DNA from: Saprospiraceae bacterium
Lineage (GTDB): Bacteria; Bacteroidota; Bacteroidia; Chitinophagales; Saprospiraceae
DNA length: 32,547 nt
Direction of reading: 5' to 3'
Assembly: GCA_018224445.1 (NCBI GenBank)
Contig: JAGTVA010000027.1
Coordinates: 1-32,547 of the forward strand
In this document: positions 22,269 through 29,483 of the stretch, piece by piece
Position numbering within the stretch: position 1 is the stretch's first letter
How the letters are laid out: each line of letters opens with the position of its first letter
Translations under genes and position numbers: made by a program
Notes under the pieces: model-generated
Databases searched by the model: none
What the model was told of the DNA's origin: nothing
What the model saw: the letters and a program-made list of their open reading frames with translations, nothing else

Positions 22269-24185
22269 ATGGATAGAAATACAGCTATAGGCATTGTATT
22301 GTTATTTATACTTTTTGTGGTTTGGGTGATGATTAACTCCCCTACTCAGGAAGAACTGGAACAGCAACGAATCGAGTTGGAACAACAGAGGTTATTGGAA
22401 GAGGCCGAGGTGGCTGACACCTTGATCAGTCCAATGGAAGCAGAGGCCGATACCCAGGTGAGAGAGGAAGTTATCCGCGACACTGCCGCTGTTACTTCAC
22501 CGGATACCACCGCGCGAATTCAACAAATGAGAGCGCTGCACGGTCCATTTGCTGCCGCTGCTTTGGGTAAAGAAGAACAAACCGTGTTGGAAAACGATTT
22601 GGTGCGTATTGTTTTTTCCAACCGCGGGGGACAGATCAGAGAGGTATGGATCAAAAACTATCTGAGGTCTTTTCTCAGCGAGGACAATGAAGAACTTCGG
22701 GATTCCCTCTTTATGATGGACCACGAGCGAAATCGCTTTGAGTACTTCCTGCAGTTGCGTCAAAACAACATAATGGTCAATACCGGTGAATTGTATTTTG
22801 ACACCCAGCTTAACGGAAATACGCTCACCTTTCGATTGCCGGCAGAAAATGGAGGTTATTTTGAACAGCGATACACTTTGCCCGACGATACCTATGCATT
22901 GGATTATGAATTGAATTTTGTCAACCTGCAAAATACCCTGGTCAATGATCCCGCTCCCGTTTCTCTAAACTGGATAAATTACCTGAATAAACTCGAACAA
23001 AACACAGGTTACGAGAGGTACTTCTCCACTGTTTACTACAAGGCAGAATCGGATCGATCCAGTTACTGTTCCTGCCGGGGCGACGATACGGAAAACAAGG
23101 ACGACACACCCCTGCGTTGGATTTCCCACGCCAATCAGTTTTTCAACAGCAGTTTGGTCGCTGAGCAACCATTTTACGGTGGATTTATGGAGACCGTTAT
23201 GCTGGACGAAGAGGCAGATGAACTCAAGTTACTGCGGAGTCGATTGGATATTCCCATTTCGATGGGCAGCCAGTCCACCTTCAATATGACTTTTTACATA
23301 GGACCTAATGAATTCGACAGATTGCAAGCCATCGGGCACGAACTCACGGATATTGTGCCCTTTGGATGGAGTATCTTTGGAACGATCAACCGATGGGTTA
23401 TTCGCCCGTTGTTTTCCTTTCTTTTTCAAGTGATTGGACATCCGGGCATGGTAATATTGGTACTGACTTTTATAGTAAAATTAGTCCTCTATCCACTGAC
23501 TTATAAAATGCTTTACTCTCAGGCCAAAATGGGTGCCCTCAAGCCTCATATGGAAAAATTGAGAGAGAAATTAAAGGGCGACCAACAAAAACTTCAAATG
23601 GAAACCATGAAGGTGTACAGGGAGTTTGGGGTGAACCCTCTAGGGGGTTGTATGCCCATGGTCCTTCAAATGCCCATTTGGTTTGCCCTCTACCGGTTTT
23701 TTCCGGCCTCCATTGAATTCCGGCAGGCCTCCTTTTTATGGGCTTCTGATTTATCTTCCTACGACTCCATCGTATACCTCGGATTCAATATCCCCTTTTA
23801 CGGAGCGCATGTGAGTTTGTTTACCCTGCTTTGGGCCGGGACTACGGTATTGTACACCTATTACAACACCAAGCACATGGACATGAATGCGGTTAACCCC
23901 ATGATGAAAAATGTGCAGTACTTTATGCCGATCATGTTTCTCTTCTTTTTCAATAGTTTTGCTGCTGGATTAACTGCTTATTTATTTTTTAGTAATATCT
24001 TTAACATCGGCCAGATCATCGCCACCAAGAACTTTATTTTTGACGACTCAAAAATAAGGGCCAAGCTGGAAGAAAACAAGAAGAAACCCAAGAAGAAGGG
24101 AGGTTTCCAGGCCCGGCTGGAAGAAGTGCTTAAAGAACAGCAACGAGTGGCTGAAGAGCGCAAAAAGAAAAAATCAAAAAAATGA
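22269..24185 (+). CDS. yidC: Membrane protein insertase YidC
   Basis: 638 aa. N-terminal TM MDRNTAIGIVLLFILFVVWVM; GHPGMVILVLTFIVKLVLYPLTYKMLYSQAKMGALKPHMEKLREKLKGDQQKLQMETMKVYREFGVNPLGGCMPMVLQMPIWFALYRFF; basic tail. Confidence 0.97.
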   Translation: MDRNTAIGIVLLFILFVVWVMINSPTQEELEQQRIELEQQRLLEEAEVADTLISPMEAEADTQVREEVIRDTAAVTSPDTTARIQQMRALHGPFAAAALGKEEQTVLENDLVRIVFSNRGGQIREVWIKNYLRSFLSEDNEELRDSLFMMDHERNRFEYFLQLRQNNIMVNTGELYFDTQLNGNTLTFRLPAENGGYFEQRYTLPDDTYALDYELNFVNLQNTLVNDPAPVSLNWINYLNKLEQNTGYERYFSTVYYKAESDRSSYCSCRGDDTENKDDTPLRWISHANQFFNSSLVAEQPFYGGFMETVMLDEEADELKLLRSRLDIPISMGSQSTFNMTFYIGPNEFDRLQAIGHELTDIVPFGWSIFGTINRWVIRPLFSFLFQVIGHPGMVILVLTFIVKLVLYPLTYKMLYSQAKMGALKPHMEKLREKLKGDQQKLQMETMKVYREFGVNPLGGCMPMVLQMPIWFALYRFFPASIEFRQASFLWASDLSSYDSIVYLGFNIPFYGAHVSLFTLLWAGTTVLYTYYNTKHMDMNAVNPMMKNVQYFMPIMFLFFFNSFAAGLTAYLFFSNIFNIGQIIATKNFIFDDSKIRAKLEENKKKPKKKGGFQARLEEVLKEQQRVAEERKKKKSKK

Positions 24186-24721
24186 CGACAACCAATCGAG
24201 TATTTCAGGTTTTATTATTCGCCATGATGTGCAGTGCATTGACGGTAGTTTCGTGCAATCGAAAAGCTGCTGACGGTTCTCAGGCGGAAGGCGACCAGGT
24301 GGAGGAGGGGTGGACTGTTTCCGAAAATCAAACTGCAGTTGCTTCTTTCAGGAGAACGGGATGTTTTGGACAATGCCCCATTTACAGAGTCTCCTTTTAC
24401 GCGAATGGAATTGCCAAATACAAGGGCGAAGCGCACGTAGATTACCCCGGAGATTACGTGGGAATTTACGACAGGGATCGCTTGAAGGAAATCATTGATT
24501 TTGCAGAAAAAAAAGGATTTTTTGAAATGGAGGACTCCTACCCTGTAGATGATCGCTACTACATTCCGGACATGTCTAATACCATCACCATGCTCAGTAC
24601 AGACCAACAGACCAAAACGATCAATCACAACAACTACGGCCCGGATGAATTAAAAGAAATTGAGAATAAACTTCAGCGTTTGGTTTATTCAATTGTTTGG
24701 CAGGGTATAACAACTAAATAA
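24182..24721 (+). CDS. DUF6438-like lipoprotein
   Basis: 179 aa; lipobox-like ALTVVSCNRKA; FRRTGCFGQCPIYRVSFYANGIAKYKGEAHVDYPGDYVG. Start overlaps the yidC stop (ATGA). Confidence 0.75.
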   Translation: MTTTNRVFQVLLFAMMCSALTVVSCNRKAADGSQAEGDQVEEGWTVSENQTAVASFRRTGCFGQCPIYRVSFYANGIAKYKGEAHVDYPGDYVGIYDRDRLKEIIDFAEKKGFFEMEDSYPVDDRYYIPDMSNTITMLSTDQQTKTINHNNYGPDELKEIENKLQRLVYSIVWQGITTK

Positions 24722-24780: not shown

Positions 24781-25839
24781 ATGGAGAAAGAAATTAATGG
24801 AATTTTAAAATGCGTGGGGGTAATCGGTGCGGGAGTATTTGGAAGCACCATTGCCAACTTGTTGGCAAAAAACGCGGAGCAGGTACTCATATACTCGCGG
24901 AGGAGGGAATTTGTACAGCGTATAAACAGCGGGGATCTCGGGCCTTATCTCAACGATCCAAAAACCATAAGGGCGACCGATGATCCATCCTTTTTAGCCA
25001 ATTCCTGCACCTTGATTTTCCCCGTTTTGCCCTCGGTCTCTTTTGGCGAAGTCCTTGCCACCTTCAGTCCCTTTCTCAAACCCTCCCATATATTAATTCA
25101 CGGGACCAAAGGCCTCCATCTCCACGGCTTTGACGAAAACCAAATTTTGGATGCCACGATTTCGAGAAAATCAGTCCGTACCATGAGTGAGCTGATCCGA
25201 GAGGAGACCAATGTCCTTCGCGTGGGATGCCTTTCCGGCCCCAATCTCGCTAAAGAAATTCTGGAAGGGCAACCCACGGCAACCGTCATCGCTTCCGAAT
25301 TCGAAGAAGTAGTTGAATTGGGCCAACGAGCGCTTTCAAGCGATAAGTTTTTTGTTTTTGGCTCCAAAGATATTGTAGGAGCAGAATTAGCGGGTTCGCT
25401 GAAAAATATCATTGCCCTGGGATCCGGCCTGCTCATGGGATTGGGCTTTGGAAAAAACATGCAGGCCATGTTGATTACCCGGGGCCTCAGGGAAGTGATT
25501 TATTTTGGAAAAGCAATGGGCAGTGATAGTAAAGCATTTTTGGGTACCGCGGGTATAGGTGATATCATCGCTACCTGCACCAGCGAGAAAAGTAGAAATT
25601 TTCAGGTTGGTCAGCGACTGGCTGAAGGAGAAACACTGGAGGAAATTTTAAATTCCATGGTTGAAGTGGCCGAAGGAATCCGCACGTTAAAGATCGCGCG
25701 ACAATTAGCAAAGCATTACAATATCCACGTCCCCATTACCAATATGCTATACAGTGTTGTATTCGAGGGATACAATATCAATCGCGCCATTCACTACCTC
25801 ATGAGATATCCCTTCGCCCCCGATGTGGATTTCTTGTAA
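24781..25839 (+). CDS. gpsA: Glycerol-3-phosphate dehydrogenase [NAD(P)+]
   Basis: 352 aa. VIGAGVFGSTIANLLA; LSGPNLAKEILEGQPTATVIAS; ELAGSLKNIIALGSGLLMGLGFGKNMQAMLITRGLREV; GTAGIGDIIATCTSEKSRNFQVG. Confidence 0.95.
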   Translation: MEKEINGILKCVGVIGAGVFGSTIANLLAKNAEQVLIYSRRREFVQRINSGDLGPYLNDPKTIRATDDPSFLANSCTLIFPVLPSVSFGEVLATFSPFLKPSHILIHGTKGLHLHGFDENQILDATISRKSVRTMSELIREETNVLRVGCLSGPNLAKEILEGQPTATVIASEFEEVVELGQRALSSDKFFVFGSKDIVGAELAGSLKNIIALGSGLLMGLGFGKNMQAMLITRGLREVIYFGKAMGSDSKAFLGTAGIGDIIATCTSEKSRNFQVGQRLAEGETLEEILNSMVEVAEGIRTLKIARQLAKHYNIHVPITNMLYSVVFEGYNINRAIHYLMRYPFAPDVDFL

Positions 25840-25952
25840 TCTCTGCGCTTTTTTTTTCAAAAAAAATACACACTTTTGGAATAGCCGGGCTTTTTTTCAG
25901 TTTGAAAGAAAAATATATCCTATATTTAAGCCTAAAATACAATACGAAAAAC

Positions 25953-26972
25953 ATGAATCAAGTACCCAGTCCTCAGTTTAAAGACAAGTCCTTTTGGCAG
26001 AGACCCGAAGGAATTACCGGCATGCTGTTTTTAGCAGGATTAATAGTGGGAGGTGGATACCTGCTTTATTTGGTCCTGCCTACGCTGGTAATCATGGCTC
26101 AGAATACCCTTTATTTGGTGGGTATGCTGTTGGTTTTATTTGCTGTTTTATACATGGTGTTCGATCCGCGTATGCGCACCTTGATTTCCTACAGCTACCG
26201 AAGCATTATGAGGTGGATAACCGGAGTTTTCATCACTATTGATCCCATAGGAATATTAAAAAATTACGTCCAGGACCTCGAAAAAAACCTTCGAAAAATG
26301 GGCAAGCAAATCGGAACCATACGCGGCCAGATGAGACGACTAAAAACCATGGTGTCAGACAATGAAAAGGAAATTGAAAACAACCTGCTGATGGCGAGAA
26401 GGGCCAACCAAGAGGGCATTGAAAGGCAGGTAATGCTGTCAACCCGCAAGGCTGCTAGATTGAGAGACAGCAATGAAAAGTACCGGGAATTGCTTCAAAA
26501 ACTCGAAATTCTGTATCGCGTACTCACTAAAATGTATCAAAATTCCGAAATTCTACTCGAGGATACCAAGGATCAGGTAAAGCTGAAAGAGCAAGAGAGA
26601 AAAGCCATTCGCGCCAGTCACTCCGCAATGAAATCGGCTATGAATGTCATTTCCGGTGACAACGACAGGCGAATACTCTTCGACAAAGCCCTTGAAGCCA
26701 TAGCAGATGACGTGGCCGATAAGGTAGGAGAAATGGAGCGATTTATGGAGATGTCCTCCAATTTCATGAATTCTGTGGATTTGCAAAACGGTATCTTCGA
26801 GGAACAAGGCCTCCGTATGTTGGAGCAGTGGGAGAAGGAATCCAAACTCATGTTATTGGAAGGCGAGTCGTCTTCGAGTTCCCTCGACCTCGGGAAAAGA
26901 AAGCCTGAAAAGGAAAAATTAAAAAGAAAAAATGAAGAAAAGGGCTCTCAATACGACAGCTTATTTGATTAG
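25953..26972 (+). CDS. Membrane-anchored coiled-coil protein; C-terminal region resembles PspA/Vipp1 (IM30)
   Basis: ORF track starts at a TTG (25902); ATG at 25953 (MNQVPSPQFKDKSFW) is more likely. Two hydrophobic segments (GMLFLAGLIVGGGYLLYLVLPTLVIM, TLYLVGMLLVLFAVLYMVF), then DPIGILKNYVQDLEKNLRKMGKQIGTIRGQMRRLKTMVSDNEKEIENNLLMARRANQEG. Confidence 0.75.
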   Translation: MNQVPSPQFKDKSFWQRPEGITGMLFLAGLIVGGGYLLYLVLPTLVIMAQNTLYLVGMLLVLFAVLYMVFDPRMRTLISYSYRSIMRWITGVFITIDPIGILKNYVQDLEKNLRKMGKQIGTIRGQMRRLKTMVSDNEKEIENNLLMARRANQEGIERQVMLSTRKAARLRDSNEKYRELLQKLEILYRVLTKMYQNSEILLEDTKDQVKLKEQERKAIRASHSAMKSAMNVISGDNDRRILFDKALEAIADDVADKVGEMERFMEMSSNFMNSVDLQNGIFEEQGLRMLEQWEKESKLMLLEGESSSSSLDLGKRKPEKEKLKRKNEEKGSQYDSLFD

Positions 26973-26990
26973 AATACAAACCCGTCATTT

Positions 26991-29483
26991 ATGTTGAAGA
27001 CTCCGTACCTTATCCACTGTTTAAAAATGGTGGTTGTGTTGTTTCTCTTTATTCAGGACAGCGGTCAATTGCTAAATTCACAACCTATAGACGCTCCGTA
27101 TGGTTGTCACCACATCCACAATAATTTTCAATCCTACGGTGTATTTACTCACCGCTCAGATGCTGCTCAAAAAGTAATTCGAAGGAGCGATACCCTGAAT
27201 TTGTATCACTATGAAATTCACCTGGATGTAACCCGTTTTATTTCAGGTGAAATATACGGAAGGACCATCGTCCACCTGGAGTCATTGATGGATTCAATCC
27301 ACGTGATAACCCTCGATCTCGAAGGTTTGACAGTAGACTCTGTAAACATAGAGCAGTCCGCAATGCCCTTTAGTCACGACGGCAGATTTTTGCGCATTTT
27401 TTCCGACGAACCCCTCTCAGCCAACGACAGTATTGAAGCGGAAGTTTTTTACCACGGAAGCCCGATCACCTGCCCGTCCGGATTTGGAGGCTTTTATTTT
27501 GAGAATGGTTACGCCTACAACCTCGGAATCGGCCTGGCAGCGGACCCTCACAATTTTGGCCGCAGCTGGTTTCCCTGTTTTGATAATTTCGTGCAGCGAT
27601 CTACCTTTGAATACCACGTAAAAAGTGAGGGAGGGAGAAAAGCCCACGCCGTAGGCAGATTTATAGAAGAGCAAGCCCTTGCAGGCGACACCCTGGTAAG
27701 GGTTTACCGAATGGAACAACCCATTCCCACTTACTTGAGCAGTGTAGCTGTCTCCAACTACAGAACGATGGACTGGACCCACCAGGGGGCTTACGGCCCG
27801 GTCGATATTCAACTGATTGCAAGGTCGGGAGATCTGGATAACTTCAGGGCATCTCTTGAAGACCTGGAATACGCCATAGATGCTCTTGAATACTGGTACG
27901 GCCCTTATCCCTTTGAGCGCATAGGATATGTAATCACCACCAGAGGAGCCATGGAGCACCCCACTAATACCGCATACCCAAGCCACAGTATTGCTGGCGG
28001 ACAAAAAAGCACCCGACTGATGGCCCACGAACTCTGCCACCATTGGTGGGGAAACCTCACCACGCTCACCACTGCTAAAGACATGTGGATCAAAGAAGGG
28101 CCGGCCGAATACGGCGCTCACCTGACTCAGGAATTTATCAACGGGCCTGAGGGCCTTAAAACTGCCGTTAGAAATAACCATCAAACCACCATCGAAACTG
28201 CCCACACCGTCGACGATGGTTACTTTGCACTTTCCCCTATGCCCGCCTACAACACCTATGGAAGGCATACCTACATCCGCGGCGCTTCCGTAATCCACAA
28301 TTTGAGAGGTTACCTGGGCGACAGTCTCTTCAGGCATGGTATGCAAGGGGTGCTCATGGACAATTCCTTCTCGGCTATAGATGCTTATGAATTCAGAGAT
28401 CAACTAACAGATCTTACCGGTTGCGATCTCACTCACTTTTTTAACGATTGGATTTTTGCCCCGGGTTACGCTGATTTTTCAATAGACTCCTTTAGGGTGA
28501 TTGGCCAAAGTGGAAATAAGCACCTGGTGGAGACTTTTTTTAAACAGCGAAAATACCAAAGCCCGCATTATCACCTGGAAGTTCCCCTTCAAATAACTTT
28601 TGGGAATGCAGGCCAAAAAACAAGCGTGAGGATGATCGCCTCAGACAGTCTGTCCTCCGATACCATTGCCTTGGAATTTATTCCCGAATGGGCGGTTTTA
28701 AATGACGAACACAGCTTGAATTTAGCTTCTTTTACCAGTGTTCTTAAAATCGACCAGCCCGGAACCATTCAGGATCCGTATACCCGTACCAGGTGGGTCA
28801 CTGACCAGGTGGAAGATTCGGTGCTCTTGTATATAGAGCACCACTATTCCGGGCCTGACAAGCCCGAGGCAATGGATCCGGATTTCCGGATTTCAGCAAA
28901 TCACTATTTTGCTGTCAAAGGCAATTTTGACGAAAGTTGGAAGGCTACACTCACTCTGCGAATCGAGGGAAAGGGAAATCTAGCCCTCGACAGCGATTTG
29001 GTTTCAATAACGGAGGATTCTCTCATTTTGGTGTATCGACCCGACAGGGCTACCGAATGGGTGGAGTACCCTCACTACACCAAACATATTCTTATTCCCG
29101 GAAGTGGATCTGGTTTTATCAATATCCAAAAAATTCAATCCGGAGAATACGCTTTTGCCAATTCATTTTTTAAGGGTGGAACTCCAACAGTGGATCGCAA
29201 TCAACCCGATATAGAGTTTTCTCTTTATCCCAATCCATTGACGACAAATACCCTCCATATCGCAAGTGGGCAACAGGAGGGCAATTACCGCGCTACAATC
29301 TATGATCTGCGGGGTACTGAGGTTATGACAATTCCGGTATTGCACATCTCACCGGAGGCCGAGCAATCCATCGACCTGAAAAACCTCCTTCCGGGAACCT
29401 ATTTTTTGAATTTGAGTAAAACCGGGGACCAATCCCAATATATGAATTCAAATTTAAATGTATTACCGTTTATTAAACAATAG
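26991..29483 (+). CDS. M1 family (aminopeptidase N-like) zinc metallopeptidase with T9SS C-terminal sorting domain
   Basis: 830 aa. MAHELCHHWWGNLTTLTTAKDMWIKEGPAEY = HExxH-18-E; GAMEH at the GAMEN position; C-terminal FSLYPNPLTTNTLHI...LLPGTYFLNLS. Confidence 0.92.
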   Translation: MLKTPYLIHCLKMVVVLFLFIQDSGQLLNSQPIDAPYGCHHIHNNFQSYGVFTHRSDAAQKVIRRSDTLNLYHYEIHLDVTRFISGEIYGRTIVHLESLMDSIHVITLDLEGLTVDSVNIEQSAMPFSHDGRFLRIFSDEPLSANDSIEAEVFYHGSPITCPSGFGGFYFENGYAYNLGIGLAADPHNFGRSWFPCFDNFVQRSTFEYHVKSEGGRKAHAVGRFIEEQALAGDTLVRVYRMEQPIPTYLSSVAVSNYRTMDWTHQGAYGPVDIQLIARSGDLDNFRASLEDLEYAIDALEYWYGPYPFERIGYVITTRGAMEHPTNTAYPSHSIAGGQKSTRLMAHELCHHWWGNLTTLTTAKDMWIKEGPAEYGAHLTQEFINGPEGLKTAVRNNHQTTIETAHTVDDGYFALSPMPAYNTYGRHTYIRGASVIHNLRGYLGDSLFRHGMQGVLMDNSFSAIDAYEFRDQLTDLTGCDLTHFFNDWIFAPGYADFSIDSFRVIGQSGNKHLVETFFKQRKYQSPHYHLEVPLQITFGNAGQKTSVRMIASDSLSSDTIALEFIPEWAVLNDEHSLNLASFTSVLKIDQPGTIQDPYTRTRWVTDQVEDSVLLYIEHHYSGPDKPEAMDPDFRISANHYFAVKGNFDESWKATLTLRIEGKGNLALDSDLVSITEDSLILVYRPDRATEWVEYPHYTKHILIPGSGSGFINIQKIQSGEYAFANSFFKGGTPTVDRNQPDIEFSLYPNPLTTNTLHIASGQQEGNYRATIYDLRGTEVMTIPVLHISPEAEQSIDLKNLLPGTYFLNLSKTGDQSQYMNSNLNVLPFIKQ

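Follow-up and report, generated by a model that had tools for sequence, protein, structure and literature searches.

A predicted membrane-anchored relative of PspA/Vipp1 in Saprospiraceae

Results

Genes around the PspA-like gene

The window analysed here is a 32,547-nucleotide stretch of a Saprospiraceae contig. On its forward strand lies yidC (22269–24185), the membrane protein insertase gene recognised by NCBIfam and Pfam. Next comes a gene for a DUF6438 protein (24182–24721; PF20033, E 1.4e-25), whose first 4 nt overlap the end of yidC, so that the two may be translationally coupled. It is followed by gpsA (24781–25839), annotated as glycerol-3-phosphate dehydrogenase (phospholipid precursor), and then by the gene under study (25953–26972), which encodes a predicted membrane-anchored PspA-like protein of 339 residues plus stop. 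Its start codon is ATG, and an alternative TTG lies 51 nt upstream at 25902. We took the ATG as the start because relatives begin at its equivalent, not at the TTG; both the reading frame and the start are conserved among them. Among named records, the closest are MAGs of Saprospirales/Saprospiraceae. Two paralogs of the gene, A and B, occur in the family, and the window carries an A copy.

The next gene (26991–29483, forward strand) begins 18 nt past the stop, as the original prediction had stated, and encodes an M1 peptidase that bears a T9SS sorting tail. That prediction suggested that the two genes form a unit, and both the short gap and the retention of the adjacency in the genus of the window and in a sister lineage (G011) speak for it. 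The peptidase gene adjoins the A copy solely in those lineages, however, at just 4 of 59 named loci. The pairing is therefore no general signature, and its distribution led us to reject it as the function of the PspA-like protein. The predicted compartments also argue against a unit, since the peptidase carries an export tail whereas the PspA-like part is predicted to be cytoplasmic. We regard a two-gene unit as very improbable; the peptidase is a clade-specific neighbour and probably not a functional partner.

The proximity of yidC and gpsA recurs in several lineages, with yidC upstream of A copies in 11/54 named loci and gpsA in 13/62. Depletion of YidC induces PspA (PMC7618853), a circumstantial fit to the yidC neighbourhood of the A copy.

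Predicted architecture of the protein

Hydropathy places transmembrane (TM) helix 1 at about aa 22–45 (26016–26087) and TM helix 2 at about aa 53–70 (26109–26162). An AlphaFold2 model built from the family alignment A1 (n = 66 sequences; mean pLDDT 79) has helices here at residues 18–49 and 52–70. Over the family, the mean number of lysines and arginines is 3.6 before the first segment, 0.06 between the segments and 4.2 after the second. Both ends of the protein are therefore predicted to be cytoplasmic.

An amphipathic helix follows at aa 72–95 (26166–26237; residues 72–93 in the model). Its hydrophobic moment, 0.27–0.32, is similar to that of alpha0 in soluble PspA, and hhalign places aa 80–96 on PspA residues 2–20. 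A PspA-type alpha0-like helix is thus present, though not N-terminal, with two TM helices ahead of it. This refines the TM-hairpin fusion proposed in the original prediction. The hairpin exists, but it is not a plain replacement of alpha0, because the helix behind it aligns with alpha0.

The two TM segments and the DPIGILKNYVQDLEKN... that the same prediction quoted from aa 97 are confirmed, the segments by hydropathy, and its description of the sequence behind them as reading DPIGILKNYVQDL... is accurate. At this point lie the DP motif and helix alpha1 (aa 97–154; 26241–26414). The arm starts DPIGIL in the window protein, the PF04012 match begins at aa 97 (profile position 23), and the model has a helix at 98–154. 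The second arm, alpha2/alpha3 (aa 157–230; 26421–26642), is a helix over the same residues in the model and is also covered by Foldseek matches to Vipp1. The long alpha1–alpha2 hairpin for which a structure prediction had been proposed as a check is therefore found, with pLDDT mostly 83–97 for the two arms in what is a predicted rather than a solved structure. Its turn lies 57 residues beyond the DP, and the alignment to the soluble PspA turn is gap-free. Beyond an elbow there is a candidate alpha4 (aa 238–274; 26664–26774; a low-confidence model helix with pLDDT about 65–80). Short C-terminal helices at 284–296 and 298–302 form a low-confidence candidate alpha5 (aa 284–302; 26802–26858; pLDDT about 55–75).

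Relationship to PspA and Vipp1

PspA is a bacterial membrane-repair protein distantly related to human ESCRT-III, and both PspA and Vipp1 are believed to work by shuttling between cytoplasm and membrane. In PspA, Vipp1 and ESCRT-III proteins, alpha5 is domain-swapped and docks on the tip of a neighbouring protein's hairpin.

A link to this superfamily had been drawn from motif spacing. The best Pfam model for the window protein is indeed PF04012 (PspA_IM30), though at 13.9 bits against a gathering cut-off of 33.9. By Pfam's rule the protein is therefore formally outside the family. Among the matches listed, no relative reaches the cut-off, the best being 27.8 bits in the genome survey and 29.4 bits for L132. 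Most members of the TM family (40 of 66, best E 5e-7) have PF04012 as their Pfam match. Most matches in the genome survey enter the profile at position 21–23, the DP after alpha0. Relatives from other families of the class, at 27–28% identity to the window protein, show the identical register. No Snf7 Pfam match was reported for the window protein or family members, and no Pfam match relates the protein to XpaC/TelA.

We compared a profile of the TM family with one of 52 soluble Bacteroidota PspA proteins using hhalign. The alignment scored 92.0% (E 6.7e-7) and was colinear from alpha0 to alpha4, a value that hinges on the PspA set chosen and needs the IM30-like subset. Classical PspA alone gave 52% and an earlier set of 25 soluble PspA proteins 40%, both off-register. 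As controls, reversed columns gave 1.8%, and the maximum over 60 shuffles in blocks of seven columns was 48% (median 0.5%). Unrelated families, coiled coils included, reached at most 53%. In a small ORF set, the TM-family HMM picks up soluble PspA of the IM30-like subset at E about 1e-5; L162, a soluble PspA found with this HMM, is a full PF04012 member.

Foldseek against the PDB put Vipp1 on top (7o3w, E 0.011), with no match at E<0.001. The match to 6zvs_A has a TMt of 0.79 and an rmsd of 3.2 over 135 columns. BAR domains come close behind Vipp1, and CHMP1B and Snf7 are also listed. With PspA/Vipp1 (IM30; Liu et al. 2021, PMC8281802) the window protein shares the alpha0-like amphipathic helix, the DP, the alpha1–alpha2/3 hairpin, an alpha1 of equal length and an alpha4 past the elbow. 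Unlike them, it has two leading TM helices, a score below the Pfam cut-off and an uncertain alpha5, and the C-terminal tail of the TM family is conserved and ends near YDxLF. The hairpin-elbow fold is shared with ESCRT-III/Snf7 and CHMP1B as well, but that match is weaker than the one to Vipp1, and the protein here is TM-anchored. No Vps4 gene was recognised near the PspA-like loci.

An unrelated TM-anchored coiled-coil hairpin could resemble PspA by convergence. In favour of this are the sub-threshold similarity to PspA, the 53% reached by a generic coiled-coil family, the BAR domains near the Foldseek top and the PDB sequence searches, which returned generic coiled coils and nothing else. 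Against convergence, the register stays constant in divergent relatives, the hhalign alignment is colinear well above the shuffled controls, and alpha1 matches PspA's in length. The phyletic pattern, described below, is moreover complementary to that of soluble PspA. We consider convergence unlikely. The motif-spacing argument stands as far as DP falling on DP, the position of the turn, and the profile and fold pointing to PspA/Vipp1; it falls short at the Pfam cut-off and in Foldseek E-values. Membership of the PspA/Vipp1/ESCRT-III superfamily is likely, not proven, and the link to PspA is supported but remote.

Distribution of the TM protein and soluble PspA

Relatives of the TM protein, mostly full length, occur in 62/101 related genomes, so the gene is no chance reading frame. 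Within Saprospiraceae, 113 of 120 genomes have it, mostly in two copies, and soluble PspA scores above the cut-off in just 5 of the 120. Four of the seven genomes that lack the TM protein have soluble PspA (G027, G556, G557 and G616), and G572 is the only genome of the 120 with both. Fisher's test for this exclusion gives p 2e-5 with phylogeny ignored, G027 and G616 being of one genus. The presence of soluble PspA in four of those seven genomes suggests that the two proteins replace one another in Saprospiraceae. The TM family turns up only sporadically in the rest of the class (21/247 genomes), and several of these are weak matches to other coiled coils.

Both paralogs, A and B, are present in the genome of Flavilitoribacter nigricans. 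The second copy in G049 (L074:5894-6915) is split over three reading frames; it is apparently either a paralog in decay or the product of a sequencing error.

A coiled-coil partner and an ABC importer operon

In most loci a coiled-coil gene, here called c0, lies directly upstream of the PspA-like gene: at 52/68 named A loci and 6/8 B loci, the neighbour cluster comprising 88 ORFs with overlapping loci included. It is absent at the A locus of the window and present at the B locus of the same genome (L061:5336-6022 (+)). The AlphaFold2 model of c0 (relatives in alignment A3; pLDDT 86) has an N-terminal amphipathic helix, a small helical bundle and a long hairpin. No family scored above its curated cut-off for the c0 protein. 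We considered c0 as a second PspA/ESCRT-III protein and rejected this, as Foldseek gave no convincing match (best E 0.12) and hhalign against PspA 13%.

For many B paralogs and distant relatives, genes follow for an OmpA-fused solute-binding protein (SBP-OmpA), a permease and an ATPase of the taurine/sulfonate/nitrate type. The SBP of the B operon is NMT1-like; for one distant relative, Pfam did not recognise the fold. One such protein (L066:4637-6217 (-)) combines an N-terminal TM segment, an ABC solute-binding domain and a C-terminal OmpA domain. This unusual fusion may tie the importer to peptidoglycan.

An ABC ATPase–permease–PBPB-OmpA operon is not found at the window locus and is present for B paralogs and for relatives in other families. 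The importer operon is probably ancestral because tree outgroups carry it, some branches of that tree being weak or long, and the B arrangement is probably older than A.

This raises the main rival to a PspA-like scaffold, namely that the protein is an accessory scaffold of the OmpA-fused importer. Such a protein would cluster or gate the transporter and bridge it to the cell wall, its PspA-like fold serving as a spacer, and the window copy would be a duplicate without its transporter. Importer genes behind the B paralog and its relatives in other families, together with the operon in the tree outgroups, favour this role. The A paralogs, however, are as widespread as B and lack the importer, with any SBP gene downstream in 3/59 cases and immediately adjacent in 0. 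The five genomes searched from the window genus, all drafts, gave matches to the OmpA part alone and no SBP-OmpA gene, and yet this genus keeps both paralogs.

Two genomes show natural losses. G616 (L281:7528-10024) has c0 directly followed by importer genes, SBP-OmpA first, and the PspA-like gene is missing from the operon, so the importer persists without it. Two soluble PspA genes lie elsewhere in this genome (L284 and L285), one of them adjoining a CesT_Tir_1 gene. In G031 (L286:5941-6595) a relic of the B operon remains, consisting of an 87-aa c0 fragment and a broken SBP fragment, and the PspA-like gene is gone. We judge a role mainly as an importer accessory to be rather unlikely.

A role in anti-phage defence was also considered; PADLOC gave no match, and we set this role aside.

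Discussion

Our preferred reading, to which we give a probability of roughly 0.6, is that the window protein is a diverged PspA/Vipp1/ESCRT-III member with a TM hairpin in front, acting as a membrane-tethered scaffold in place of soluble PspA. It builds on the gene and its hydrophobic segments, the predicted fold, the remote similarity, the phyletic pattern and the neighbourhoods. From these we infer topology, polymerisation, membrane protection and the replacement of PspA. The protein would most likely sit in the inner membrane, its two ends both facing the cytoplasm. Its alpha1–alpha2/3 hairpins may pack against one another laterally, as they do in filaments of PspA/Vipp1. The resulting scaffold would be permanently tethered and would stabilise or remodel the inner membrane. 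In Saprospiraceae it could assume the role of soluble PspA.

The two paralogs lie in different gene settings. The A copy of the window sits behind yidC–DUF6438–gpsA, a membrane-biogenesis neighbourhood. The B copy is encoded with c0 upstream and in many genomes with the importer downstream; the solute-binding protein of this importer includes an OmpA-type peptidoglycan-binding domain. That the family swapped a soluble, stress-recruited PspA for an integral-membrane version unable to detach, in two paralogs, one tied to the importer and one near the YidC and GpsA genes, is a tentative proposal at somewhat under even odds.

If this proposal is true, the protein is a scaffold of the ESCRT-III type that carries its own TM anchors and lacks a recruitment step: a bacterial ESCRT-III relative that remains where it acts. 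A version with two TM anchors that apparently displaces soluble PspA would raise the question of whether recruitment is needed at all. Given the gene losses in G616 and G031 and the presence of two copies, the replacement idea could be put to the test in cultured strains such as Flavilitoribacter nigricans.

According to Ravi et al. 2024 (PMC11237479), TM-bearing PspA and Snf7 homologs can be accompanied by an AAA+ ATPase, ABC genes and a PBPB-OmpA protein, and some Bacteroidetes PspA/Snf7 neighbourhoods hold a third coiled-coil gene. Set alongside by description, their type (example OGG56892.1) shares with ours a TM segment plus a PspA/Snf7-like coiled coil, and an ABC ATPase, a permease and an OmpA-fused SBP. 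The TM architecture and the transporter link are therefore not new in principle. Unlike that type, ours has no AAA+ ATPase recognised among the neighbours listed for eight loci, and it comprises two paralogs, one of them off the transporter and near yidC/gpsA. New, as far as the literature searched goes, are the two-copy state that is nearly universal among Saprospiraceae, the scarcity of soluble PspA in this family, an A paralog that lies near yidC/gpsA away from the transporter, and an alpha0-like helix following the TM hairpin.

Two other proteins (L168:3913-5061 (-) and L077:5291-6406 (-)), neither with a Pfam match, have two TM segments, a DP or NP start and a coiled coil, and are possibly more distant relatives.
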